A stretch of 64,000 nt of DNA from assembly GCF_029760935.1 (NCBI RefSeq), contig NZ_CP121684.1, positions 248,001-312,000 on the forward strand. Reading direction: 5' to 3'. This DNA is from Lysinibacter sp. HNR (GTDB lineage Bacteria; Actinomycetota; Actinomycetes; Actinomycetales; Microbacteriaceae). Of the stretch, positions 51,518 through 63,217 are shown in pieces. Within the stretch, counting starts at the first letter, position 1, and each line of letters starts with the position of its first letter. Both the position numbers and the translations under genes were made by a program. The notes beneath the pieces are model-generated. The model saw nothing but the letters and a program-made list of their open reading frames with translations. It ran no database searches and was not told where the DNA came from.

Positions 51518-51571
51518 CTGTGATGAGTCGCGACTGAAGCGTACTGGGTTTTGTTCCGTCATTGGGTTTCG

Positions 51572-52484
51572 TCATACCCGTGTTCTCACGGGCTGATATG
51601 TTTCAGCATAGTACGCTGTTTCGACCTCGACCGGGGTACGGTAATCGAGCGCTTCATGGAGACGTTGGTTGTTCCACCACCACACGTATTCCAGGGTAGC
51701 GAGTTCAACTTCCTCGACCGTTTTCCAGGGTCCTTGCCTGCGAATCAGTTCAGCCTTGTAGAGCCCGTTCACGGTCTCTGCGAGGGGCGTTATCGTAGCT
51801 GTCGCCAACGCTCCCTGTCGAGGGTATCGCGCCGAGCTCACGTACTCGTTCGGTGTAGACCACAGACATGTAATTCGACCCGTGACCCGAGTGCTGCCTG
51901 ACCCCACCTAAATCACCGCCAGTATTCCAAGCAGCCATATCGAGTGCCTGTAACGGGAGTTCTTCTGTCTTCAAGGTCGAGGCGACACTCCAACCAACGA
52001 TCTTGCGGGCGAACACGTCAGTGATGAACGCAACATACGCAAACCCAGACCACGTCGCGACATAGGTGATATCCGCAACCCACAGGCACCGTGGCGCGGC
52101 CGCAGCGAACGCACGATTCACCAGATCTCTAGGAAGGCCTTGTGCACGGTCGCTTCTCGTTGTGAATGCTTTAGCGCGGCGAGTAACGCCCTGAACTCCA
52201 GCAAGGCGCATGAGTCTGTTCGTCTGATCACGACCAATCTCCCAGCCCTCACGCTTCATCAATGCGTGCATCTTCCGTGCCCCGTAGACGCCATAGTTCA
52301 CGGTGTGGAGCCGACGAATTTCAGGTACCAGCAGTTCATCGCGTAACTGCCGCGCTGACGGTATTCGTTGTTTCGCTGCCCGATACCCGCGGGAAGTAAT
52401 AAATCCACGAACTGCCGCACGCAGGGTGCGACAGAGGAACTCAACCCCGAAATGATCACGGTATTGATCAATGAACCGGATCAT
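51572..52484 (-). pseudogene. IS3 OrfB transposase, broken by a +1 frameshift
   Basis: The DDE integrase domain is seen as WVADITYV (first Asp), FITDVFARKIVG and SVGDSYDNA. Then the frame is lost at an extra C (plus-strand run of four G at 51784-51787), and LAETVNGLYKAELI with the catalytic Glu continues in the next frame to 51572. Restoring one base gives a full-length OrfB of about 303 residues. Inactive unless programmed slippage occurs or the extra base is a read error. Confidence 0.88.
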
Positions 52485-52795
52485 TTCGTTCGTGGCTGAT
52501 CGAGTTCCTTCGCGAAAAATATGCTCGCAGCTTTGAGTACTTCATTCGCTTTCTTCAACTCCGCAACCTCACGCCGTAAACGCCGGTTTTCTTCAGCGAC
52601 ATCGGTCGTGATGCCAGGTCTGCTGCCGGTATCGATCTGGGTTTGGCGATACCACCTCCGAAGAGTGTCCGGGGCTACACCCAAAAGCCCACCGATATGC
52701 CCAGTTACCGCGTGAAGACTCGTATACTCAGGCATCGCCTCCACGATCATACGCAACGCCCGCTCACGGAACTGCGCATCATATTGTTTAGTCAT
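52481..52795 (-). CDS. IS3 OrfA (HTH part)
   Basis: 104 residues from ATG 52795. HTH with APDTLRRWYRQ and a leucine-zipper-like C-terminus (ENRRLRREVAELKKANEVLK). The 3' end overlaps orfB for the usual -1 frameshift fusion. Confidence 0.9.
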   Translation of the reverse strand: MTKQYDAQFRERALRMIVEAMPEYTSLHAVTGHIGGLLGVAPDTLRRWYRQTQIDTGSRPGITTDVAEENRRLRREVAELKKANEVLKAASIFFAKELDQPRTK

Positions 52796-52844
52796 AGTAT
52801 TCCTATCCTTATACAAAGACCGGAACAAAACCCAGTACGCTTCA

Positions 52845-53202
52845 CCTGCCGACAGTAGTGATAACTACTCGCCCCGATCTTCAGCAGTTGCAACAGAATC
52901 TTCAACGGAAACGTGAGGCGAAGAGTTTCAATGATCTGGGTCTTGTGAAGGTTTGACAGTTGTCCCGGGATGACGCCCTCGTCTTTTTTTACGAGTCCGA
53001 GTTCTCGTTCGAGCACCGCTTTCTCAACCAGGAGTTCAGCCGTTAGTCTCCTCAACTCAGTGATGTCATCGGGCAGGGATCGTTCAAGACTAGCGCGGGT
53101 GGGAAGCCCGTCAGCCTGTTTCTGTTCGCGTCTACTCATGAGCCCCCGGTCTCCGTGCTCTCGCCAGCGTTTCAATTTCCCGACCGAGCAGGCTGCGCTC
53201 AA
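52845..53202 (-). pseudogene. Truncated second IS3-type transposase
   Basis: N-terminal part only: a WREHGDRGLMSRREQKQ linker, coiled coil (ELRRLTAELLVEKAVLEREL), then QLSNLHKTQIIETLR and a GASSYHYCRQ segment, the start of an IS150-like transposase. It is cut by the IS3 end at 52844; no C-terminal half is found on the other side. Confidence 0.75.
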
Positions 53203-53390: not shown

Positions 53391-55190
53391 TCAGCGTGCA
53401 ATACGGTAACGGTTGATCGTGAAACCTTGAGGGGAAACGACGAGAATTCGTAGTGTGTGTAGATCAAAACTGAGGCTTTGGGTGGTTTCGAACGATCCGT
53501 GTATATTGCTTACAGGCAGTGGGCCGTGTGAGAGTGCGTTAGAGCCGGTGGCTTTATCCTGTAGTGAGAGAGCCGCATATATGTTCTCAGTGGAGCCTTG
53601 TGGGAGGATCTCTATTTTTCCATCGGTCGTCACTGACTCTACATAGAACTTTACATTTGGTGGTGTTCCAACGGAAATATACCGTGGGCCGCAAGTGACA
53701 CAATTCCCAGCGACTACTGTTGGGCCTCCTGTATATGAAATTGTTCCCGCACTAACTGATAGAAGTGACCCGCATCGAACGCAGGTCTCGCCTGTTTTTA
53801 TTGGCTCAAGCATCGCCATTCCCTCGATAATGTCTTCTAGCCTGTAGTCAAGGAAAGGATGAAATGCTGACACAATTCGTGCGCTAGCAAGTTTGTTGAG
53901 TCGAGCAGCAAGTCTAAGCTGTTGCTGTCCCGTGCTATCTCCAGAAAGGACTCTTGCTCTGCGCCAGGAATGAAATAAGAGAAGCAAGTTGCGAAGTCCA
54001 TTACGAACTTCCTTCAGGAGGTGCTGTGCTCCATCGGTTTCTCGTGAGCGCTCATTCAGCGAATCTAGTATAAGAGAATATGTCTGAGACAGAGCCAGTG
54101 CGTCACCAAGAATCTTTTCTGCGTTTAACGCATCTTCTGTGATGTCTTTGAGGATGAGCTGGGAAGGAACTGCCTGCTCGATGAATACCGTTTTTTCCGT
54201 GGCTGCAACACTTCCTTGAGTGTGACCTTCAATCTCGTAGAATCTCCCCGGAACTGTGCTTTCTGGTAGTCGTCTTACATTATGGCGGTGAGTTCTCAGG
54301 TTTGCAGTGACGGGATCCCCGAGCAATAACCAGGGGCGCGCACCGCGAAAACGCGGTGCGGAAAGCGTGTTCAAAAAATTGCACGCGGCTATCAAACCTT
54401 CTTCGGAAGCGATCAGAAACGCTAAACGTACTTCGTCACTCGTCAGGGGGACGGTACGGTCGTTGCATATAACTGTACGTACGGAACTGCTCGCAATCAT
54501 AGACAGAGCGGCACTTGCCTGATTTGAATAGTGCTCCCTTCCTGCCGAAAAGCCGCTGCAAGAAAGAAAAAGTATTTCTTCAGCAGCAAGATCGCTAAAA
54601 TTTCTAAAGCGACCCCCTGCGTGTCCTGCACGCTTGCAGTAGTTCTGATTACAGTCAGGGAAAGTAGTAACTTCCGATTTTACCTGACCGCAAAGTACGG
54701 TATTTCGTAAGTTTGCATGAGCACCTTCGCCGTGTGCATGCAAGCAGAGAATGCGCCAAGCGCGAGTCAAATCTGAGTGGTTGATCTGTTGTGGGTAGGG
54801 TAGGGTCTGAGTTTGATAACCCTTTATCTGCACGATAGAGCCATAGAGTTCATCAAGCAGAAGATCGCCGGAGGAAGAGCTTTTTGGACTGACCTGACGA
54901 GCGAGAAAGGCTTTGAGCTCTTGGGGAGACTGTGCCGTAGCTATGCCGCAACTGCCTGTGAATGATGTTGTAAGGTGATTGAGAAAGGGTCTTTTAAATA
55001 AATCGGGTTTACCAATAATAAAGGCGTTATTTGTCTGATGTGAGGTTAGCTCGCTGAGTCTATATAATTTCCGTTCCTCAAAATTTTCTAAATATTTAAT
55101 AGCAATTTCCCAATAGTCTTTATCAGAATAGATTGGAACGTCGCGAGACTGGAGTGGCTTTGCTGCTTGAAGAGGAGAAGAGTTAGTCAT
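53391..55190 (-). CDS. Caspase/CHAT-like protein with zinc-binding Cys pairs
   Basis: 599 residues from ATG 55190, which overlaps the preceding stop by 8 bp. A candidate catalytic His is in LCLHAHGEGAH (H153) and a candidate Cys in LFLSCSGFSAG (C211), the His-Gly then Cys-Ser/Gly order of the caspase-fold clan CD (CHAT, gingipain, caspase). Between them is a Cys group (C168, C180, C185). A helical middle follows (about 320-450), then CVRCG and CVTCG near 475-505 (zinc ribbon), and a beta-rich C-terminus. As the last gene of the biosynthetic operon it could mature, guard or respond to the product. It could also be a defence-type protease. The role is unknown; fold assignment is from motifs only. 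Confidence 0.6.
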   Translation of the reverse strand: MTNSSPLQAAKPLQSRDVPIYSDKDYWEIAIKYLENFEERKLYRLSELTSHQTNNAFIIGKPDLFKRPFLNHLTTSFTGSCGIATAQSPQELKAFLARQVSPKSSSSGDLLLDELYGSIVQIKGYQTQTLPYPQQINHSDLTRAWRILCLHAHGEGAHANLRNTVLCGQVKSEVTTFPDCNQNYCKRAGHAGGRFRNFSDLAAEEILFLSCSGFSAGREHYSNQASAALSMIASSSVRTVICNDRTVPLTSDEVRLAFLIASEEGLIAACNFLNTLSAPRFRGARPWLLLGDPVTANLRTHRHNVRRLPESTVPGRFYEIEGHTQGSVAATEKTVFIEQAVPSQLILKDITEDALNAEKILGDALALSQTYSLILDSLNERSRETDGAQHLLKEVRNGLRNLLLLFHSWRRARVLSGDSTGQQQLRLAARLNKLASARIVSAFHPFLDYRLEDIIEGMAMLEPIKTGETCVRCGSLLSVSAGTISYTGGPTVVAGNCVTCGPRYISVGTPPNVKFYVESVTTDGKIEILPQGSTENIYAALSLQDKATGSNALSHGPLPVSNIHGSFETTQSLSFDLHTLRILVVSPQGFTINRYRIAR

Positions 55191-55824
55191 GATCGTCTGA
55201 GCTGAGGTAGGTGATGGTAATAGACTTCCTACGAAATTGTCCTGTTCCTGGTGGCTCCACAGCGTGCCACGAATTCTCGGTCGGAGCGAAAAGTACTGAA
55301 CTTCGGTAGGTCGGTTCAATTCGTTTGACAGTCGTAGCAGCATCGGCTGACCGGAGCAACGCGAGATGCCCACCATGTTCAGGAACCCAGTCAGGCGACA
55401 GGTACAAAATTTGAGTGAGCTTCTTTTCGGGTTTGTCAACATGGGGTGAGAGCCAATCACCCTCACCATAACTCCACGCATCCACCCGCACCACAAGTGA
55501 TTTCACATCAGCGTCAAAAGCTGTAGATAACGCAGAGCGATAGTGAGGGGAATCGACCGCATCAAGAAGCGCGGATGTCGCTGGAGCATCGGCTGTTTCG
55601 TTCCGTTGTAAACGTGTAGTTCGGAAGCTATAAGTCTTATCACCGTTGTCGCGTCGAGCGCGTTCCAAGCGGCTGTCGAATACTTCGCGAACTAGTTGTG
55701 ATGCGAATTGATCGGGGAGCACTTCCATAACCTGTCTGTGTGGCCACGGATCCCGAGAAAGGTTCGTGTTTTGGATCTGTGTAACCATCCAGTCAACGAG
55801 GGAATCAAAAGCGGTTGTAGACAT
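55183..55824 (-). CDS. 2-oxoglutarate/Fe(II) oxygenase A
   Basis: 213 residues. The jelly-roll iron site is H128-x-D130 (LSPHVDKPEKK) and H187 (ENSWHAVEP), with an Arg/Lys around residue 197 (QFRRKSITI) for 2-oxoglutarate. The middle YLSPDWVPEHGGHLALL matches its operon paralogue. Resembles prolyl-4-hydroxylase-like enzymes. In nikkomycin/polyoxin two such enzymes (NikI and NikM type) oxidise the octosyl acid and related intermediates, so a similar task on a C-nucleoside is inferred. Confidence 0.8.
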   Translation of the reverse strand: MSTTAFDSLVDWMVTQIQNTNLSRDPWPHRQVMEVLPDQFASQLVREVFDSRLERARRDNGDKTYSFRTTRLQRNETADAPATSALLDAVDSPHYRSALSTAFDADVKSLVVRVDAWSYGEGDWLSPHVDKPEKKLTQILYLSPDWVPEHGGHLALLRSADAATTVKRIEPTYRSSVLFAPTENSWHAVEPPGTGQFRRKSITITYLSSDDHD

Positions 55825-56588
55825 TATGTGCCGTTCCTCCTTGGCTCGTTAGAAAACTCACATACTTCAAGAACTCGTGCAAGCAGGGTATCGGCGTTGT
55901 TAACCTGCCCTAAAAAGTAAGGGTGCTCAGGAGCAACCGCGCGGGGGATGTCATCGTGTCTGATCATCTGTAACGCCCAGTAACCGTGGCGAAGTGGACC
56001 AAGTATGTCTGGTTCGATCCTGTCTCCAACAAACAAGGTTTGATTTGGTTCGGCACCTATTTGCTTAAGTTCACGATACATGCGCTCGTTAGGTTTGAGT
56101 GCTCCAACTCTTGAGGAAGAAATGATGCCGATGGGAGCCGGAATAGAAGTGCCAATTTTATTTACAAACTTTTCGATCACGTCTGGTGAGGAATTTGAGC
56201 ATACCGCCCATTTAAATCCAAGCTGTGTAAGCGTGTAAATCATTGGTATTACATCGTTATAGAGGGTAACGTTGCGATGTCGTTCGGCTTTTTCACATAG
56301 CTTTAGTATGGAACGTTGGTTTTCAATTTTTGCAATATTCATTGTTGTAATTATGCGGTTGCGTCGTAAGGTCCAAAAAGTCTCATCGTTGAGAGCTTGT
56401 GGTGCGAGTTCTTCGCCATCGGTTCCATCAATAAGTGCGATGAGCTCAGCCAGGCATAGTTTTTCTTGAATTGGTGATCGAGCCCAGACCACGTGTGCAG
56501 CACTGGGAACTGAATTCGAAGACCAATGACACAGAGTCTGGAACAGATCAAAAACAATCACTTCAAAGGCTGGCATGCGCACTCTCAT
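55824..56588 (-). CDS. HAD-superfamily hydrolase-like protein
   Basis: 254 residues. Motif I is VFDLFQTLCHW: nucleophile D14, but Phe in place of the second Asp that serves as acid/base in phosphatases. Motif II CSNSS near residue 131; Lys in KPNERMYREL; motif III FVGDRIEPDI near residue 195. An alpha-helical C1 cap lies between I and II. Members of the FDLFGTL type include phosphatases and dehalogenases. Coupled to both neighbours by overlapping stop/start codons. May remove a phosphate or act on an unusual bond. Confidence 0.8.
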   Translation of the reverse strand: MRVRMPAFEVIVFDLFQTLCHWSSNSVPSAAHVVWARSPIQEKLCLAELIALIDGTDGEELAPQALNDETFWTLRRNRIITTMNIAKIENQRSILKLCEKAERHRNVTLYNDVIPMIYTLTQLGFKWAVCSNSSPDVIEKFVNKIGTSIPAPIGIISSSRVGALKPNERMYRELKQIGAEPNQTLFVGDRIEPDILGPLRHGYWALQMIRHDDIPRAVAPEHPYFLGQVNNADTLLARVLEVCEFSNEPRRNGT

Positions 56589-57178
56589 CCCACATCACGG
56601 TAAGCATGTACTAAAACGGTGGTGCGATAGGACGGGCACAAATCAGTGATCGGAGCCACCTCATGCCAGGAGTCTAGGGAACGTGCAAAAGCAACCCCTG
56701 TTCCTTGAAAGGGGTAAGCTTTGCAGGTTGGCTTCACTGTGTCTGCTGACTCGTATAGACGAAGATCTCCACCCCAACTCTCTCGCCAGTCAGGGCTGAA
56801 ATAGTAGATAGCTGAAAATACTTTATCGGGACCGTCTGTGTGGCGAGACATCCAGTTTGATGCGCCGTATGCGGCCAAGCGAACTTCAACCTCGGTGATC
56901 TCGTTCGAGTCCACTCCAAGGTCATTTGCTATGCGTTGGGTATTGGTGTCGTCCCCTAAAATACGTACAAGAGATGCCCAATCTTCCGGTAGTTGGGTAG
57001 ATAAGCCTGACGATTTTCGATACGCTTCGAGCATCCGTGTGCTGTACGTCTTGTCGCTTCCATTGTTCCTTGATGTGTGATCGAGCAGGTCTACTGGAAA
57101 AGACGAGAGTGAGCTTGGCGGCTCGAAAGCTATATGTATGTGGGCGAATGGGTCGGTGTGTAGGGTATGTGAGATCAT
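56585..57178 (-). CDS. 2-oxoglutarate/Fe(II) oxygenase B
   Basis: 197 residues from ATG 57178, which overlaps the aminotransferase stop (ATGA); an upstream ATG at 57268 would lie inside that gene. Iron site H113-x-D115 (SRHTDGPDK) and H172 (LDSWHEVAP); R185 for 2-oxoglutarate. Shares YYFSPDWRESWGGDLRL with oxygenase A, so the two are related. Predicted to hydroxylate or further oxidise the sugar-derived part of the nucleoside. Confidence 0.8.
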   Translation of the reverse strand: MISHTLHTDPFAHIHIAFEPPSSLSSFPVDLLDHTSRNNGSDKTYSTRMLEAYRKSSGLSTQLPEDWASLVRILGDDTNTQRIANDLGVDSNEITEVEVRLAAYGASNWMSRHTDGPDKVFSAIYYFSPDWRESWGGDLRLYESADTVKPTCKAYPFQGTGVAFARSLDSWHEVAPITDLCPSYRTTVLVHAYRDVG

Positions 57179-58242
57179 TTTTGTTCCTTCCACGCTCCTG
57201 TCAGCTCTGAGATAAGCTGTCCCATGATCTGATCTAAAGCAATTGAAAACCGAATGCTTGTGTGCCAATTGAGTGCAGTATTGACTTTTGTTCGAATGCC
57301 TAGTTGTAATAGGTGTTGTGCGATACGTTCGGCCTTTTCTTGTGTAAGAAATACGTGAAGGAAATTAGCTTCGGACGTGGGAACTTCCATACCGATACTG
57401 AGGAGTTCTTGGCGGACCTTGTCGCGTTCTTGTGTGATGTCATTCCAGATTGGCTCGTATTGCGAGTAAGACGCGAAACACTGCCTCATCAAATCCAGTG
57501 CATGCTGACTCACTCCATTTTCGATACCCGCCACAGCTAAGTGCGATATGTTTTCGGGTGCTCCCGTCACTATTGCAGCACGTGCTGCTGCAAGGCCAAA
57601 AGCTTTCGAGGATGTAAATACTGTATTCAGTGACGACATAATCTGCTTGAGATCGTGTCGAGGAGCAAAGAACGGAGCATAACAAAGGTCGACGACAAGT
57701 TCTGAACCTTGCTCCCGACACCGTGCGTCTAGTGCAAAGAGTTCGTCGACTGAGAAGCTCCCGTGCGCTACAGGAGCATTCGGCCAGGTCACCGCTACGA
57801 TTGTTTGAGCTCCTATTCGCGAGACAAGATGCTCAAAGTCCTTTTCGCGTTCACCAGAAATCACAACCGTGTCAAAAGGAAGGTTGTAGAGGGTTGCGGC
57901 TTGTTTCCAGGCTGGATACGCAGGGGATAGGTACAGTAACTTTTTAAAACCACGTGACTGTGCAACCCCGACGATTGCCCGTATGGCCGCATCGGATCCG
58001 GGTGAGAAGATTAACTGCTCCTCGGGTCTGCCGATAAAAGCTGCAATCTCAGTGGCGGCCTGGGAGTGAACGGGATAAAAGTTAAGGGGAGTAACTCGGG
58101 GGTTAAAGAGCGTGTGTAAATTTGAAAGCTGTGGATGTTGAAGCTCGTTAGAGCCAAGATTTATGCCCGACCTCACACCGCGGCGTTCAAAAGATAAAAG
58201 CTCGAAATCTGGAATGGTGTAAGAGGGTGAGTGTGGATTCAA
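57175..58242 (-). CDS. PLP-dependent aminotransferase (HisC/NikK-like)
   Basis: 355 residues, fold type I, class I/II. The PLP lysine is K213 in FTSSKAFGLAAARA, the ring-contact Asp is in LVVDLCYAPF (D185), Asn in WPNAPVAHG (N155), and the carboxylate-binding Arg in SIRFSIA near the C-terminus. Length matches histidinol-phosphate aminotransferase relatives. In the nikkomycin/polyoxin pathway NikK/PolI, of this family, adds the amino group that gives aminohexuronic acid. The same reaction on a C-nucleoside aldehyde is my inference. Confidence 0.85.
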   Translation of the reverse strand: MNPHSPSYTIPDFELLSFERRGVRSGINLGSNELQHPQLSNLHTLFNPRVTPLNFYPVHSQAATEIAAFIGRPEEQLIFSPGSDAAIRAIVGVAQSRGFKKLLYLSPAYPAWKQAATLYNLPFDTVVISGEREKDFEHLVSRIGAQTIVAVTWPNAPVAHGSFSVDELFALDARCREQGSELVVDLCYAPFFAPRHDLKQIMSSLNTVFTSSKAFGLAAARAAIVTGAPENISHLAVAGIENGVSQHALDLMRQCFASYSQYEPIWNDITQERDKVRQELLSIGMEVPTSEANFLHVFLTQEKAERIAQHLLQLGIRTKVNTALNWHTSIRFSIALDQIMGQLISELTGAWKEQK

Positions 58243-59567
58243 ACTCGTTCCATCACATTCTGAGGGATTTTATTCATGACGGAAGTGACGTGGGGATCTA
58301 CACCGAAGAAAAACTCGTACCACGGGTATTGTTTATTACTACGCTCATTGCTGGAGAAACCCAAAAGCTGTCGATTAAATCGCCATAGATCCTCTTTGTG
58401 CTGACATCTTCGTAACTCATCCAGGTCGGCATATACAGTAGGGCGTACTCGTGCGCCCACTTCTTGTGCTGCTTTGACTGTCGCACGGGTTCCTTCAAGT
58501 GTGGTTCCAGGGAGCCCCACCATGATAAAAAAGTTTAGCTCGATGCCAAACTCATGAGCGTTGTTATTGAGCTCTTCGAAGCGCATAATCTCAGTCCGTT
58601 TTTTCCTGGGAAGAGTTTCCAAGCCGCCGGGTTCAAGAGTCTCTAACCCTACGCTTATCCTGACGCAGCCTGACTCAGCCATTCTTTTCATAAGCTCCGC
58701 ATCCAGATGGGGGATGGCGGTGGCGCACTTCCAGGGAAGATTACAGGATGAGCGTTCCATCTCCGCACAGAACTCCAGCGTCCATTTCCTATCAAAGGTG
58801 AAAGTGGGTGCATAGAACGAGACGTAGTCGAACGGTCTAGTTTCTACGGCTGTTTCGATGTAGTCAACTATTCTTTTGGCGCTCAAGCGGCGATCACGCA
58901 AACCCTGTACGGTTGGTACTTCACAAAAAGAGCAGTTGATGGGGCAACCTCGCCCCACGGGGACAACTAATTCGCGTCGCTCGGGGATTCCGCAAAACTT
59001 ATTTTGATCCCTTGAATACAATCGATCATAGTCATGATATGGAATTTCAGACACATCAGGTAGCGGCCAGGTTCCGGGCAAAAACCTACGTCCCGCAGAA
59101 GCCTTGATCCAATGAGTGCCGTCTCGAACATCTATACCGACTAATTGTGTGGGTGATTGCTCACTCAGCATCCAAGAGACATACTCGTAAAACCCTAGCT
59201 CAACATCGCCACCAGTGACGATACCGTCAAGGTCGAACTGTCGAAATACGAGGGGAGCTTCCATGCTGAGCCGACCTCCCGTGATGACGTGGCAACCGGG
59301 CGCGAGCGAGCGAATATACTCAATAAAACGATCCAGATTATCGACCGTGTCAAAATCATTAATGATAATTACGAGATCGGGAGAGCTTTGATAGATCTGT
59401 TCTCCGATCTCTTTCCACGTCAGATTAAGCAAGCCAAACTCTGCGGAAGTAAGATCAATTTCTGGAAATTCTGATCGAAGCATTTCGGATGTCGTGTAAA
59501 CAGTCAAGTGGTGACCCGCATTAAAGTAGCTTGGTACGTGTGGAGGCCAGACGACCAGGACTTTCAT
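58239..59567 (-). CDS. Radical SAM enzyme with B12-binding-type N-domain (NikJ/PolH-like)
   Basis: 442 residues. The N-terminal 150 residues look like a B12-binding Rossmann domain (VVWPPHVPSYF, VITGGRLSMEAP) but lack a clear DxHxxG cobalamin motif. The radical SAM cluster is CPINCSFC (C208, C212, C215), followed by YAPTFTFDRKW and ISVGLETLEPG. In octosyl acid synthesis NikJ/PolH uses a 5'-deoxyadenosyl radical to close the second ring of 3'-enolpyruvyl-UMP. Together with the enolpyruvyl transferase in this cluster the same bicyclic closure is expected here. Confidence 0.82.
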   Translation of the reverse strand: MKVLVVWPPHVPSYFNAGHHLTVYTTSEMLRSEFPEIDLTSAEFGLLNLTWKEIGEQIYQSSPDLVIIINDFDTVDNLDRFIEYIRSLAPGCHVITGGRLSMEAPLVFRQFDLDGIVTGGDVELGFYEYVSWMLSEQSPTQLVGIDVRDGTHWIKASAGRRFLPGTWPLPDVSEIPYHDYDRLYSRDQNKFCGIPERRELVVPVGRGCPINCSFCEVPTVQGLRDRRLSAKRIVDYIETAVETRPFDYVSFYAPTFTFDRKWTLEFCAEMERSSCNLPWKCATAIPHLDAELMKRMAESGCVRISVGLETLEPGGLETLPRKKRTEIMRFEELNNNAHEFGIELNFFIMVGLPGTTLEGTRATVKAAQEVGARVRPTVYADLDELRRCQHKEDLWRFNRQLLGFSSNERSNKQYPWYEFFFGVDPHVTSVMNKIPQNVMERV

Positions 59568-60160
59568 ATTTTGTCCTCCAATATATATGTAATAAATGCT
59601 TTTTTAGCTAGGTTATTTCGGGCCTGGAAGTCTAGATAGGTTTCATCGCGCCTGGTAAGGATTTCTTCGAGCCAATCTGGCCTCGTGTCGAGCAGGGAAA
59701 ACGTTTCTTGTGCTTCTCGTACCCGCACGGATAGAGGCGCCCCAAAGCCTTTGAGTAGATTGTCTATGACTATGCCTGTGCGGTCTCTTCCAAGCTGGCA
59801 CATAATAACAAGATCGAAACCCTCAAGAAGGAGTTCCCGAGCCTTTAAGTAAACCGGTTCAGAAAGAACTTTTAACTGTTGGTAGTGAGATAAAAACACA
59901 TTTTCATCTCGATGAATCCTTGGAATTGCAGCGAAATCAGGGTCGTTTAGAGAGTACCGAAGTGTTTGACAGTTTGTTCGCTTGTGTCTGATTTCGTTTG
60001 ATTTTCGTAGGTCGATAATATAGCCAAGAAACGGCAGTGGAAGCGTAGGCAAGCTATCAGTTCCTGCAGCTGCGCGGTACAGGACCCCTTGGTGATCGTT
60101 TGCTCTGGTTCCGCTTATGGGTATTTTTCTAGCGAATTTCAAAGTATCTAAAGTTTTCAC
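59564..60160 (-). CDS. Tyrosine-phosphatase-fold phosphatase (NikL/PolJ-like)
   Basis: 198 residues. Active-site loop CQLGRDRTG (C121, R127) is the CX5R signature of the cysteine-based phosphatase family, of the Y_phosphatase3 type. A conserved N-terminal GVLYRAAAGTDSL segment also fits. In nikkomycin and polyoxin clusters a phosphatase of this fold removes the 5'-phosphate after ring closure. Coupled to the radical SAM and TruD-like genes by ATGA overlaps. Confidence 0.82.
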   Translation of the reverse strand: MKTLDTLKFARKIPISGTRANDHQGVLYRAAAGTDSLPTLPLPFLGYIIDLRKSNEIRHKRTNCQTLRYSLNDPDFAAIPRIHRDENVFLSHYQQLKVLSEPVYLKARELLLEGFDLVIMCQLGRDRTGIVIDNLLKGFGAPLSVRVREAQETFSLLDTRPDWLEEILTRRDETYLDFQARNNLAKKAFITYILEDKI

Positions 60161-61245
60161 TGCGCTTTAGCCCCAATGACGCGAAGAAACTGTGCAATTG
60201 CCATAGTTGCGTATGAGCCAGAGGGCAAAAAGAAACTTATCGTTGCGCAGTATTTTCCAGGATGCAGGGAATCTTCTTTGGGGGCTTCAAGATGGAAAAG
60301 CGTGTTTACACGTACGGCTCGTTCTTGATGAAGCGCAGTTGGTGAACTATTGACTAAACGTACGGTTGTGTAGGGGGAGGCCAGGGGTAAAGACGCAAAA
60401 TTATCTTCCTGTGGGAAGCTGTATTCAATACCGTCCCTGTATACTTTTTCAACAGGTGATATCTCCCGTAATCTGTCTGCGACTGATGAGTTCCAGAGGA
60501 AAGAATAATGTGCAGACCGATAGAAACTAGTAATACGTTGGTCCAGGGAGTCAAAAAAGTCAACAGCAGTTCCTGTATGCTGCTGTGCCGCCAGAGCTTC
60601 CGCTGATCCCGAGGCTGCTACTAACGGGAGAGCATTATCAAACTCTTTGTCTTGAAGATATTTTCCGATTAAATGTGTTTGTGATGGTCCCGTTGGAACA
60701 CCAAATCTTTGAGTATCGTAATAATTAATAAATTCAAAATGACGCTTTGATTCTGTTGGCCAGTAGGCCAAGTCGCTCTCGGCGATGTTTCGAACCGTAA
60801 TGTTAAAACTGTTGCCAAAGAGGTCTCCTACGCTAATTGGCTCGCGGCTCGTTCCTATAAAGGTCACCCGAAGATACTTATCCTGGTCAGTGAAAAGCTC
60901 ATCTTTGTGTAGTGTGGAGGTCTCGGGAATACTGAAATACTGATGGGTGATTGCGTTTTCATCTTTGAGTCCGGCATACCCAATTTTTTCACGACCTATA
61001 TTGAGGGCATCGGCGATAAACCCTATCGCCTGGAAGGTGGTCAAATTACGTTTTGATACAAGGAAAATGTTGTAGCGAGAATCAAGGCTGCTGATTTGTT
61101 TGTTGGCGCTTGTTCTAGATTCCAGATGAAACCGTGGCGTTTCATGCACAACAAAATCTTCAGGTGTTGTTTTCAGTGCGGCGTCTGCAAGGGGTGGAGT
61201 GAATTCTGGTGGTATTCCAATAATTGAATCAGGAGTAGGACTCAC
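60157..61245 (-). CDS. TruD-like pseudouridine synthase (MalD/PumJ-like)
   Basis: 362 residues from a GTG. The start has PEDFVVHE; the catalytic motif GYAGLKDENAITHQ contains Asp95; and NYYDTQRFG is the second TruD signature. These are uncommon in actinobacterial core genomes, where tRNA uses other pseudouridine synthases. In malayamycin MalD makes 5'-pseudouridine monophosphate from UMP, and PumJ does so for pseudouridimycin. It would provide the C-C glycosidic bond here. First gene of the minus-strand operon. Confidence 0.88.
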   Translation of the reverse strand: MSPTPDSIIGIPPEFTPPLADAALKTTPEDFVVHETPRFHLESRTSANKQISSLDSRYNIFLVSKRNLTTFQAIGFIADALNIGREKIGYAGLKDENAITHQYFSIPETSTLHKDELFTDQDKYLRVTFIGTSREPISVGDLFGNSFNITVRNIAESDLAYWPTESKRHFEFINYYDTQRFGVPTGPSQTHLIGKYLQDKEFDNALPLVAASGSAEALAAQQHTGTAVDFFDSLDQRITSFYRSAHYSFLWNSSVADRLREISPVEKVYRDGIEYSFPQEDNFASLPLASPYTTVRLVNSSPTALHQERAVRVNTLFHLEAPKEDSLHPGKYCATISFFLPSGSYATMAIAQFLRVIGAKAQ

Positions 61246-61343: not shown

Positions 61344-62678
61344 ATGCCATCATATAATATCAAAGGGGGAAAACCTTTGATAGGGGCTGTCCAACCAGAA
61401 GGCTTTAAACATGCTTTTGTAACCGTTCTTGCGGCTTCGTTCCTTGGTCAGCATGACGTTACAATCGCTGGGGCTCCAACGACACAGCTAGAAGCAAGTA
61501 CTCTTTTAACGTTGCTCGAGGCTGTTGGGGCATCTGTTTCAGTAAAAGATGATAAGGTCTCGCTTGGAATTAATCAGGTCTCAGGGAGTTTCCCTCAACC
61601 CTTATACCAATCAATCCACGGTAGTCTCTATCTCGTCCCTGGTCTGCTCGCACACACGGGAGAAGTGACAATGCACCCCGCAGGTGGGTGCGCCATAGGT
61701 AATGGTGTTGCCGGAGGGCGTCCAATGAGTCACTATTTTGAAGTGTTAAGGCGATATGGTGCAATAGTGGACGTAACGACTGGCTCAGTCCGGATGCCTG
61801 TCGGAGGTCTTCGTGGCACCGTAATTGACCTGGTTGATTTCGTAGACGATCCCCAACTTATGACCGGGCCTTTGTATTCAGGTGCAACTAAGTTTGCGAT
61901 CCTTTGCGCAGCGATCTCTAGTGGTGTTTCAATAATTCGGAGCGCGTATCCTAAAGCTGACGTGACAGAGATGGTTCGAACGCTTCAACTTTTAGGGGCA
62001 GATATCGAAATAGATAGTGAGCAGGATATCATGCGCATCCAATCAGGCAGTCTGCTTTCCGAGCGCCGTAATGTTGTCCATCATCTCATTTCAGATCCGA
62101 TGCAGACGCTTACTTGGCTAGTAGCTGGTGTTATGACGGGAGGGGATGTTCATATTGATGCTCATGATGTCCGCATTCTCAGACAGAGCATGCAGGCAGA
62201 ATGTGAAGCTCTCACGAGAATGGGCTTTGAGATCCACGAGTCAGCTAGAAGTCTCTCGATTGCCAATGGTGCTCGACCCATTAAAGGGATTGACCTTAAG
62301 ATTCACTCACGTGGCGTGTTTAGTGATGCGCAACCAATTTTTGCGTTACTTATGACAAAACTGTCTGGCTTTTCGACCATTATCGACACAGTTTGGCGGC
62401 GACGTTATGAGTATGTGCAAGGCCTTAACGCATTGGGGGGTAGTATACGAAAGACTTCATCCGGCATTCGTATTGCTGGAGGGTACCCTCCGTCCATATC
62501 AGATGTTAGGGTCACTGGAACTGATTTGAGAGCTGCTGTCTCATTGGTTCTTGCTGGAACAGCTATTAACGGTACTACTATGGTTTATGGAGTTGAGCAT
62601 CTTGATCGGGGTTTTACGAATTTTGCATCGGTCCTTGAATCTTTAGGTGGTTCGGTGACTCGAGAGGGCTTTGAGTGA
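61344..62678 (+). CDS. MurA/NikO/MalO-like enolpyruvyl transferase
   Basis: 444 residues. Two-domain inside-out barrel with six repeats as in MurA/EPSP synthase. The Cys loop AGGCAIGNGVAGGRP has C116, the counterpart of MurA Cys115. The N-terminal GGKPLIGAVQPEGFKH fits the family start, with Gly/Gln in place of MurA SGAKN. NikO/MalO add phosphoenolpyruvate to the 3'-OH of UMP or pseudouridine-MP rather than UDP-GlcNAc. Context rather than motif decides the substrate; a second genomic MurA is to be expected elsewhere. ATGA overlap with the kinase gene. Confidence 0.82.
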   Translation: MPSYNIKGGKPLIGAVQPEGFKHAFVTVLAASFLGQHDVTIAGAPTTQLEASTLLTLLEAVGASVSVKDDKVSLGINQVSGSFPQPLYQSIHGSLYLVPGLLAHTGEVTMHPAGGCAIGNGVAGGRPMSHYFEVLRRYGAIVDVTTGSVRMPVGGLRGTVIDLVDFVDDPQLMTGPLYSGATKFAILCAAISSGVSIIRSAYPKADVTEMVRTLQLLGADIEIDSEQDIMRIQSGSLLSERRNVVHHLISDPMQTLTWLVAGVMTGGDVHIDAHDVRILRQSMQAECEALTRMGFEIHESARSLSIANGARPIKGIDLKIHSRGVFSDAQPIFALLMTKLSGFSTIIDTVWRRRYEYVQGLNALGGSIRKTSSGIRIAGGYPPSISDVRVTGTDLRAAVSLVLAGTAINGTTMVYGVEHLDRGFTNFASVLESLGGSVTREGFE

Positions 62679-63217
62679 AAGTTCGAAGAATTCTTGTACT
62701 CGGCTCTCCAGGGGTTGGGAAAACTACTATCTCCCGCCTGCTATCAAATAGATTAAGAATTCCGTACATTTCCCTTGATGATGAGTATTGGCAAGCTGAT
62801 TGGGAGCGTCCATCATGCCAGGAGTGGAGCAAAACGCTTAAGGCCATTACAGAGCGTTCGTCGTGGGTTATAGATGGAAATCATGCACGAACCCTTACAG
62901 TACGTGCAAGCAGGGCGGAAGTCGCAGTAATTGTTTCAGCACCGGCGCTGCTTTGCTGTTACCGAATATTGTATCGAGTAGTCCGTATACGCCGAGGGGA
63001 ATATAGCTTGGCACCCAAACGTGTCGCTGCTCAATTAGAGGTCGGTGTAAAAACCTCAGCAAGTAAAGACCTTTTTGAGCTCCTTGTGCTTGCTTTGCGT
63101 TTCCAGAAGAAGACTCTTCCGGAGGTTCTTGGTGTGCTTGCTGACAGTGGAGTTCGAATTGTGCGGGTAACTTATAAGACTAGTGATCAGGAGATAGAGC
63201 GTTTATTACGGGGATAA
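62675..63217 (+). CDS. P-loop nucleotide/nucleoside kinase-like protein
   Basis: 180 residues. Walker A VLGSPGVGKTTIS at 8-20, then DDEYW and WVIDGNHART, the pattern of adenylate-kinase-like 'topology modulation' (FlaR) proteins. Pseudouridimycin clusters also have an adenylate kinase-like gene. It might phosphorylate pseudouridine or a pathway nucleoside; also possible is a self-protection role by phosphorylating the product. Confidence 0.75.
   Translation: MKVRRILVLGSPGVGKTTISRLLSNRLRIPYISLDDEYWQADWERPSCQEWSKTLKAITERSSWVIDGNHARTLTVRASRAEVAVIVSAPALLCCYRILYRVVRIRRGEYSLAPKRVAAQLEVGVKTSASKDLFELLVLALRFQKKTLPEVLGVLADSGVRIVRVTYKTSDQEIERLLRG

Follow-up and report, generated by a model that had tools for sequence, protein, structure and literature searches.

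A BlsK/Pur6-type protein with a gingipain-like fold in a C-nucleoside gene cluster of Lysinibacter sp. HNR, a predicted tRNA-dependent aminoacyltransferase

The nearest characterised relatives of the protein described here come from nucleoside antibiotic pathways. In the biosynthesis of blasticidin S, leucine is added and later removed again as a cryptic group, and BlsK is named as a [3Fe-4S], tRNA-dependent aminoacyltransferase of this pathway in a title cited in PMC10691278 (Wang et al. 2021, PNAS e2102318118). Pur6, the puromycin aminonucleoside synthetase, was reported to be without known domains, and an AlphaFold 3 model of it resembles gingipain R, with Cys326 lying near the gingipain Cys244 (PMC11641026). 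Aminoacyl-tRNA was proposed as the probable donor of Pur6 in the same paper, since cystocin-type clusters carry tRNA-Cys genes. Malayamycin is a C-nucleoside, and carbamoylation and methylation are the last steps of its pathway.

A gene for a 599-aa protein was analysed in a malayamycin-type cluster of Lysinibacter sp. HNR, within a window (the whole stretch of DNA that was analysed) of 64,000 nucleotides, positions 248,001 to 312,000 of NZ_CP121684.1. As judged from sequence comparison, the protein represents a new subfamily of the BlsK/Pur6 kind from C-nucleoside clusters. In members of the BlsK/Pur6 family, about 600-700 aa long, a double caspase domain of the gingipain type is followed by a helical middle part, a ribbon with four cysteines and an Ig-like end. 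It is probable that the 599-aa protein is a tRNA-dependent aminoacyltransferase that acylates an amino-C-nucleoside and forms one family with BlsK and Pur6.

The host cluster and its 599-aa gene

The malayamycin-type set of scaffold genes is present in Lysinibacter (Table 1), and the malayamycin A (mal) cluster likewise has TruD, an enolpyruvyl transferase, a radical SAM enzyme, a phosphatase, an aminotransferase and two 2OG oxygenases. From TruD to the 599-aa gene, all genes run on one strand and overlap by 1-8 bp, bar one uncertain start. Past the window edge, genes for an MFS transporter and a DUF6065 protein follow. Pieces of an IS3-like transposase, read from ORF translations only, lie at window positions 51551-53202 at the downstream edge of the cluster and suggest a mobile border.

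The open reading frame was confirmed on the minus strand, starting from ATG, at the coordinates given in an earlier reading of the letters and their translations (the sequence-only reading). The ATG at 55190-55188 and the oxygenase stop at 55183 yield the 8-base overlap that this reading had pointed out, and its proposal of translational coupling to the biosynthetic operon is borne out by this overlap. HAHGEG contains H153, LSCSGF contains C211, and CVRCG/CVTCG contain C470/C473 and C497/C500.

Table 1. Features of the 599-aa gene and its host cluster in window coordinates
Feature	Position	Strand	Remark
BlsK/Pur6-type protein with gingipain fold, predicted tRNA-dependent aminoacyltransferase	53391..55190	(-)	599 aa
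Gingipain/CHAT-like domain, residues 13-300	54291..55154	(-)	AF2 model and VIA-align matches
H153, clan CD histidine position	54732..54734	(-)	His in 23/29 family members
C167, C180, C185, candidate Fe-S or other metal ligands	54636..54692	(-)	invariant 29/29
C211, clan CD nucleophile position	54558..54560	(-)	invariant 29/29
Four-cysteine ribbon C470/C473/C497/C500	53691..53783	(-)	invariant 29/29
C-terminal beta-sandwich, Ig-like, residues 501-599	53394..53690	(-)	weak match, Z about 7
2OG-Fe(II) oxygenase	55183..55824	(-)	stop overlaps start of 599-aa gene by 8 bp
HAD-family phosphatase	55824..56588	(-)	
Second 2OG-Fe(II) oxygenase	56585..57268	(-)	start codon uncertain
Class I/II aminotransferase	57175..58242	(-)	
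NikJ/MalJ-type radical SAM enzyme	58239..59567	(-)	
Tyrosine-phosphatase-like phosphatase	59564..60160	(-)	
TruD-like pseudouridine synthase	60157..61245	(-)	
NikO/MalO-type enolpyruvyl transferase	61344..62678	(+)	
Small P-loop kinase	62675..63217	(+)	conserved in most related clusters

The mal cluster differs by tailoring with a carbamoyltransferase and an O-methyltransferase, whereas neither was found in the Lysinibacter cluster, which has the 599-aa protein. For the carbamoyltransferase, no match was obtained in the window from 44 to 64 kb, and no such ORF was recognised in the next 18 kb. Carbamoyltransferase genes are present in six related clusters, of which none (0/6) carries a gene of the 599-aa family. 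A replacement of the carbamoyltransferase by the 599-aa gene was therefore considered but not retained: the two were never found together, but a comparison of six versus five lineages is not significant. One malayamycin-type cluster with the carbamoyltransferase gene and without the family gene lies on a plasmid of a Mesorhizobium root-nodule isolate (L004:5419-17395), and its enolpyruvyl transferase appears truncated.

Gingipain-like fold and invariant cysteines

With the 599-aa protein as sole query, nothing was found in Pfam, NCBIfam, PADLOC, PDB, plasmids, phages and several hundred actinobacterial genomes. Neither a peptidase family nor a family of any other kind was assigned in Pfam, NCBIfam or PADLOC, peptide-pattern scans from this protein alone retrieved nothing in genomes or viral contigs, and nothing was obtained by tblastn against plasmids and phages or by a profile scan of viral contigs. 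When PDB sequences were searched with a 27-member profile, RNA polymerase zinc ribbons were matched (E 0.0016 or worse), but not a clan CD peptidase.

AlphaFold2 reached a pLDDT of 34 on the single sequence and a pTM of 0.61 with an alignment of 20 relatives, none of them from plasmid records; the pLDDT of 10-residue blocks in residues 11-296 was mostly 64-92, with one dip to 55. The model was matched by VIA-align 2 to the gingipains RgpB and Kgp (Z 17.1 over 241-259 residues), to Craspase TPR-CHAT (Z about 11) and to separase (Z 9.5), and the best Foldseek match was TPR-CHAT (E 2.7e-4). Because the model matches gingipains, TPR-CHAT and separase, the caspase/CHAT/gingipain fold claimed in the sequence-only reading, which had named structure prediction as the way to check it, was right.

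Gingipains (peptidase family C25) share with the 599-aa protein a double caspase-like fold over about 240-260 residues, the same order of His and Cys motifs, and an Ig-like domain on the same chain. However, no sequence match between them was found, and the 599-aa protein differs by extra invariant cysteines, a His that is not universal in its family and the setting in a biosynthetic operon. Craspase TPR-CHAT/Csx29 and other CHAT proteins have the clan CD domain in common with it, whereas no TPR part was seen in the 599-aa protein, no CRISPR genes lie nearby and no Pfam CHAT match was obtained.

Eight cysteines (C167, C180, C185, C211, C470, C473, C497 and C500) are invariant in 29/29 sequences from three phyla. 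Three of them, C167, C180 and C185, are located between the His and Cys motifs and were absent from the sequence-only reading. At about 22-23% identity, relatives keep H153-G-(E/D)-G, C167, C180, C185-KRA, C211-x-GF, GDP at 291-293 and both Cys pairs. The motifs of the reading frame are not due to chance, because they persist in relatives of this low identity, and because the modelled part, residues 13-304, resembles clan CD structures. The assignment of the Cys pairs as zinc-ribbon-type also held, as both pairs are kept in relatives and the PDB profile matches were RNA polymerase zinc ribbons.

H153 is replaced in 6/29 sequences and kept in all nine close relatives. Since C211 is kept there as well, the His-Cys dyad is intact in the C-nucleoside subfamily, but it is not conserved across the 29 sequences of the family. 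This bears on whether H153 and C211 make the protein an active cysteine protease of clan CD, with a peptide partner as its substrate or with a role as damage sensor or self-destruct device, as the sequence-only reading had suggested. Such a role would fit the gingipain and CHAT fold and the intact dyad of the nine close relatives, but it is improbable and was not upheld: no peptide or substrate gene for a protease was recognised in the operon, PADLOC gave no match, and members of the wider family lie mostly in biosynthetic loci, mainly antibiotic-type clusters at blsK and pur6 positions. Moreover, the dyad His is lost in some members while the four cysteines of the same domain (C167/C180/C185/C211) never vary, and a protease role is disfavoured because a His-Cys protease family would not be expected to lose its His and to keep three extra cysteines.

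Fast sequence change, and the fact that some members lack the dyad His, might also point to a non-catalytic pseudo-enzyme, for example a scaffold of the pathway or a protein for self-resistance. This is very improbable, as the eight cysteines are strictly invariant over three phyla, and both BlsK (by its title in PMC10691278) and Pur6 (PMC11641026) are described as enzymes. In a phylogenetic tree, the nine C-nucleoside members group with four others with good support; the Lysinibacter sequence sits on a very long branch, so that its exact place in the tree is unsure.

Close relatives and the wider BlsK/Pur6 family

An alignment of the radical SAM enzyme served as bait and retrieved 23 related clusters, and tblastn with the 599-aa protein gave matches in 6 of these 23 loci. 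With a three-row profile, relatives were found in 8/22 genomes with a NikJ-type enzyme, namely in Streptomyces WZ.A104, Amycolatopsis GM8, five Xenorhabdus species and Staphylococcus gallinarum (on a separate small contig). In the actinomycete and Xenorhabdus relatives, a 2OG oxygenase gene lies immediately upstream of the gene. Outside of NikJ-type genomes, no member of the close subfamily turned up in the samples taken, which comprised 246 Streptomyces, 99 Xenorhabdus family, 200 Bacilli and 396 actinobacterial genomes. The co-occurrence with TruD/NikO-like genes that the sequence-only reading proposed to look for was thus found. A lineage-collapsed Fisher test for the link with the NikJ-type enzyme gave p about 1e-7; this value is rough, since the bait had selected the positives, and the same positives had gone into the profile. 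Some homologous clusters lack the gene, such as the one in Mesorhizobium and the malayamycin-like cluster of S. samsunensis, and therefore the gene is not core to the C-nucleoside scaffold. NikJ-type clusters themselves extend far outside Streptomyces, to Candidatus Aquirickettsiella, Legionella MAGs and Staphylococcus gallinarum (L014, L022, L024, L011).

Divergent members of the family were detected in 12/246 Streptomyces genomes, mostly with about 600-700 aa. Among the genes around them are those for condensation domains, L-amino acid ligases, LysW, aminotransferases, oxygenases and transporters, and none of the other host-cluster proteins had a match in these loci. In one cluster, which also holds amino acid kinase and transketolase genes, a gene for a LysW-type amino-group carrier lies directly upstream of the family member (L068:9628-9801). 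In two Streptomyces genomes (L064:7986-12972 and L069:6668-11712), the members have about 705-711 aa and adjoin genes for a solute-binding protein, a TPR-type protein and an ABC transporter.

The connection to blasticidin-type clusters came from Kitasatospora NBC_00039 (an annotated plasmid record), where a homologue lies between an MFS transporter and a blsL-like methyltransferase gene, in a cluster that also has CGA synthase, blsE, blsF, blsG, aminotransferase and ATP-grasp genes. The BlsL-like protein of this cluster ends with CFLKD, compared with CFYKD encoded by the published blsL primer. From this J-K-L gene order, the homologue appears to occupy the blsK position. A second plasmid member lies among blsE/blsF and beta-methylarginine genes (L077:5551-19177); by its genes for CGA synthase, 2-ketoarginine methyltransferase and beta-methylarginine aminotransferase, the cluster appears to be one for arginomycin.

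When the blsK-position group, assigned by gene order, was compared with the C-nucleoside subfamily, hhalign gave 97.7% (E 1.6e-12, 570 columns), and 0.3% in a negative control against the radical SAM profile. The BlsK-group profile had no match in six NikJ-type genomes without the gene, but it missed the Lysinibacter protein too. BlsK and the 599-aa protein are thus alike in the full-length profile homology, in the eight cysteines, which are the same in the blsK-position proteins as assigned by gene order, and in the setting of a nucleoside antibiotic cluster with an aminotransferase. Identity to the blsK-position proteins is about 14-15%, the pathway is of the C-nucleoside TruD/NikJ type in Lysinibacter, and an iron-sulfur cluster is only a candidate feature of the 599-aa protein. 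The iron-sulfur cluster of BlsK would be consistent with a metal site formed by C167, C180 and C185, either alone or together with C211, and the ribbon cysteines may be alternative ligands.

A family profile that contained no Pur6-like sequence retrieved Pur6-like proteins from three Xenorhabdus genomes (E about 1e-10 to 1e-11). They have 707-708 aa in two genomes, with a shorter ORF call in the third, and aminotransferase, methyltransferase, monophosphatase and acetyltransferase genes adjoin the Pur6-like gene in two of the loci. A combined profile against the Pur6-like group, assigned by gene order, gave 98.3% in hhalign (E 1.1e-14, 393 columns); the blsK-position and Pur6-like sequences share only about 14-16% identity with the 599-aa protein. 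One puromycin/cystocin-type cluster of Xenorhabdus has three tRNA-Cys (GCA) genes in tandem, about 0.6 kb from its Pur6-like gene (L096:997-1465). Pur6/CstB of the puromycin and cystocin pathways and the 599-aa protein have in common a gingipain-like model and a Cys at the nucleophile position, and the Pur6-like Xenorhabdus proteins carry the same eight cysteines. Pur6 is longer, however (84 kDa), it belongs to a purine N-nucleoside pathway, and some of its clusters have tRNA-Cys neighbours, whereas no tRNA or synthetase gene is present in the Lysinibacter cluster. The sequence-only reading knew of no such protein in described C-nucleoside pathways; this agrees with the description of malayamycin, although pathways for other nucleosides do have known relatives.

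A predicted aminoacyl transfer in C-nucleoside biosynthesis

The activity, acceptor, amino acid, cofactor ligands and product of the 599-aa protein are predictions. TruD would make pseudouridine, NikO/NikJ-type enzymes would extend the sugar, and the oxygenases and the aminotransferase would place an amine, the aminotransferase thereby supplying the amine acceptor. The 599-aa protein would then transfer an aminoacyl group from a charged tRNA to form an amide on the amino-C-nucleoside of the operon, the pocket of the protease active site serving acyl transfer and not hydrolysis. C211 might carry a transient aminoacyl thioester or be a ligand of an iron-sulfur cluster together with C167, C180 and C185, and the four-cysteine ribbon may bind tRNA.

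It is also conceivable that an aminoacyl or acyl transferase draws on another donor in place of charged tRNA, for instance on a carrier-protein thioester or on an acyl phosphate activated by an ATP-grasp enzyme. Some relatives lie beside LysW, condensation domains or L-amino acid ligases, and Xenorhabdus relatives precede two ATP-grasp-type genes, so that the donor might be made otherwise there. For the 599-aa protein this is rather unlikely, because neither carrier and adenylation genes nor, including the flank past the window, NRPS and ATP-grasp genes were seen in the host cluster, BlsK is named tRNA-dependent by its cited title, and a Pur6-like gene lies beside three tRNA-Cys genes. The first of the two ATP-grasp-type genes overlaps the Xenorhabdus family member (L039:5876-8607), only this first one has a Pfam match, and both genes possibly stand for further amide-forming steps.

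Returning to tRNA-dependent aminoacyl transfer, a more far-reaching idea can be put forward tentatively for the whole gingipain-fold family (BlsK, Pur6 and the C-nucleoside group): the active site of a clan CD protease may have been converted to tRNA-dependent amide synthesis, with an iron-sulfur cluster bound by the former nucleophile Cys and by three additional cysteines.

Regarded so far as unrelated peculiarities, the leucylation step of blasticidin S, the coupling of an amino acid in puromycin and an unassigned gene of C-nucleoside clusters are joined here in one protease-fold family with eight invariant cysteines. C-nucleoside pathways thus probably share the aminoacylation trick of blasticidin S and, as proposed, of puromycin. 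For the unstudied antibiotic of Lysinibacter sp. HNR, the prediction is that the product carries an amino acid, probably on the amine that is otherwise tailored in malayamycin-type pathways. The family can serve as a query to find other clusters, and in it a protease fold was possibly reused for amide synthesis.
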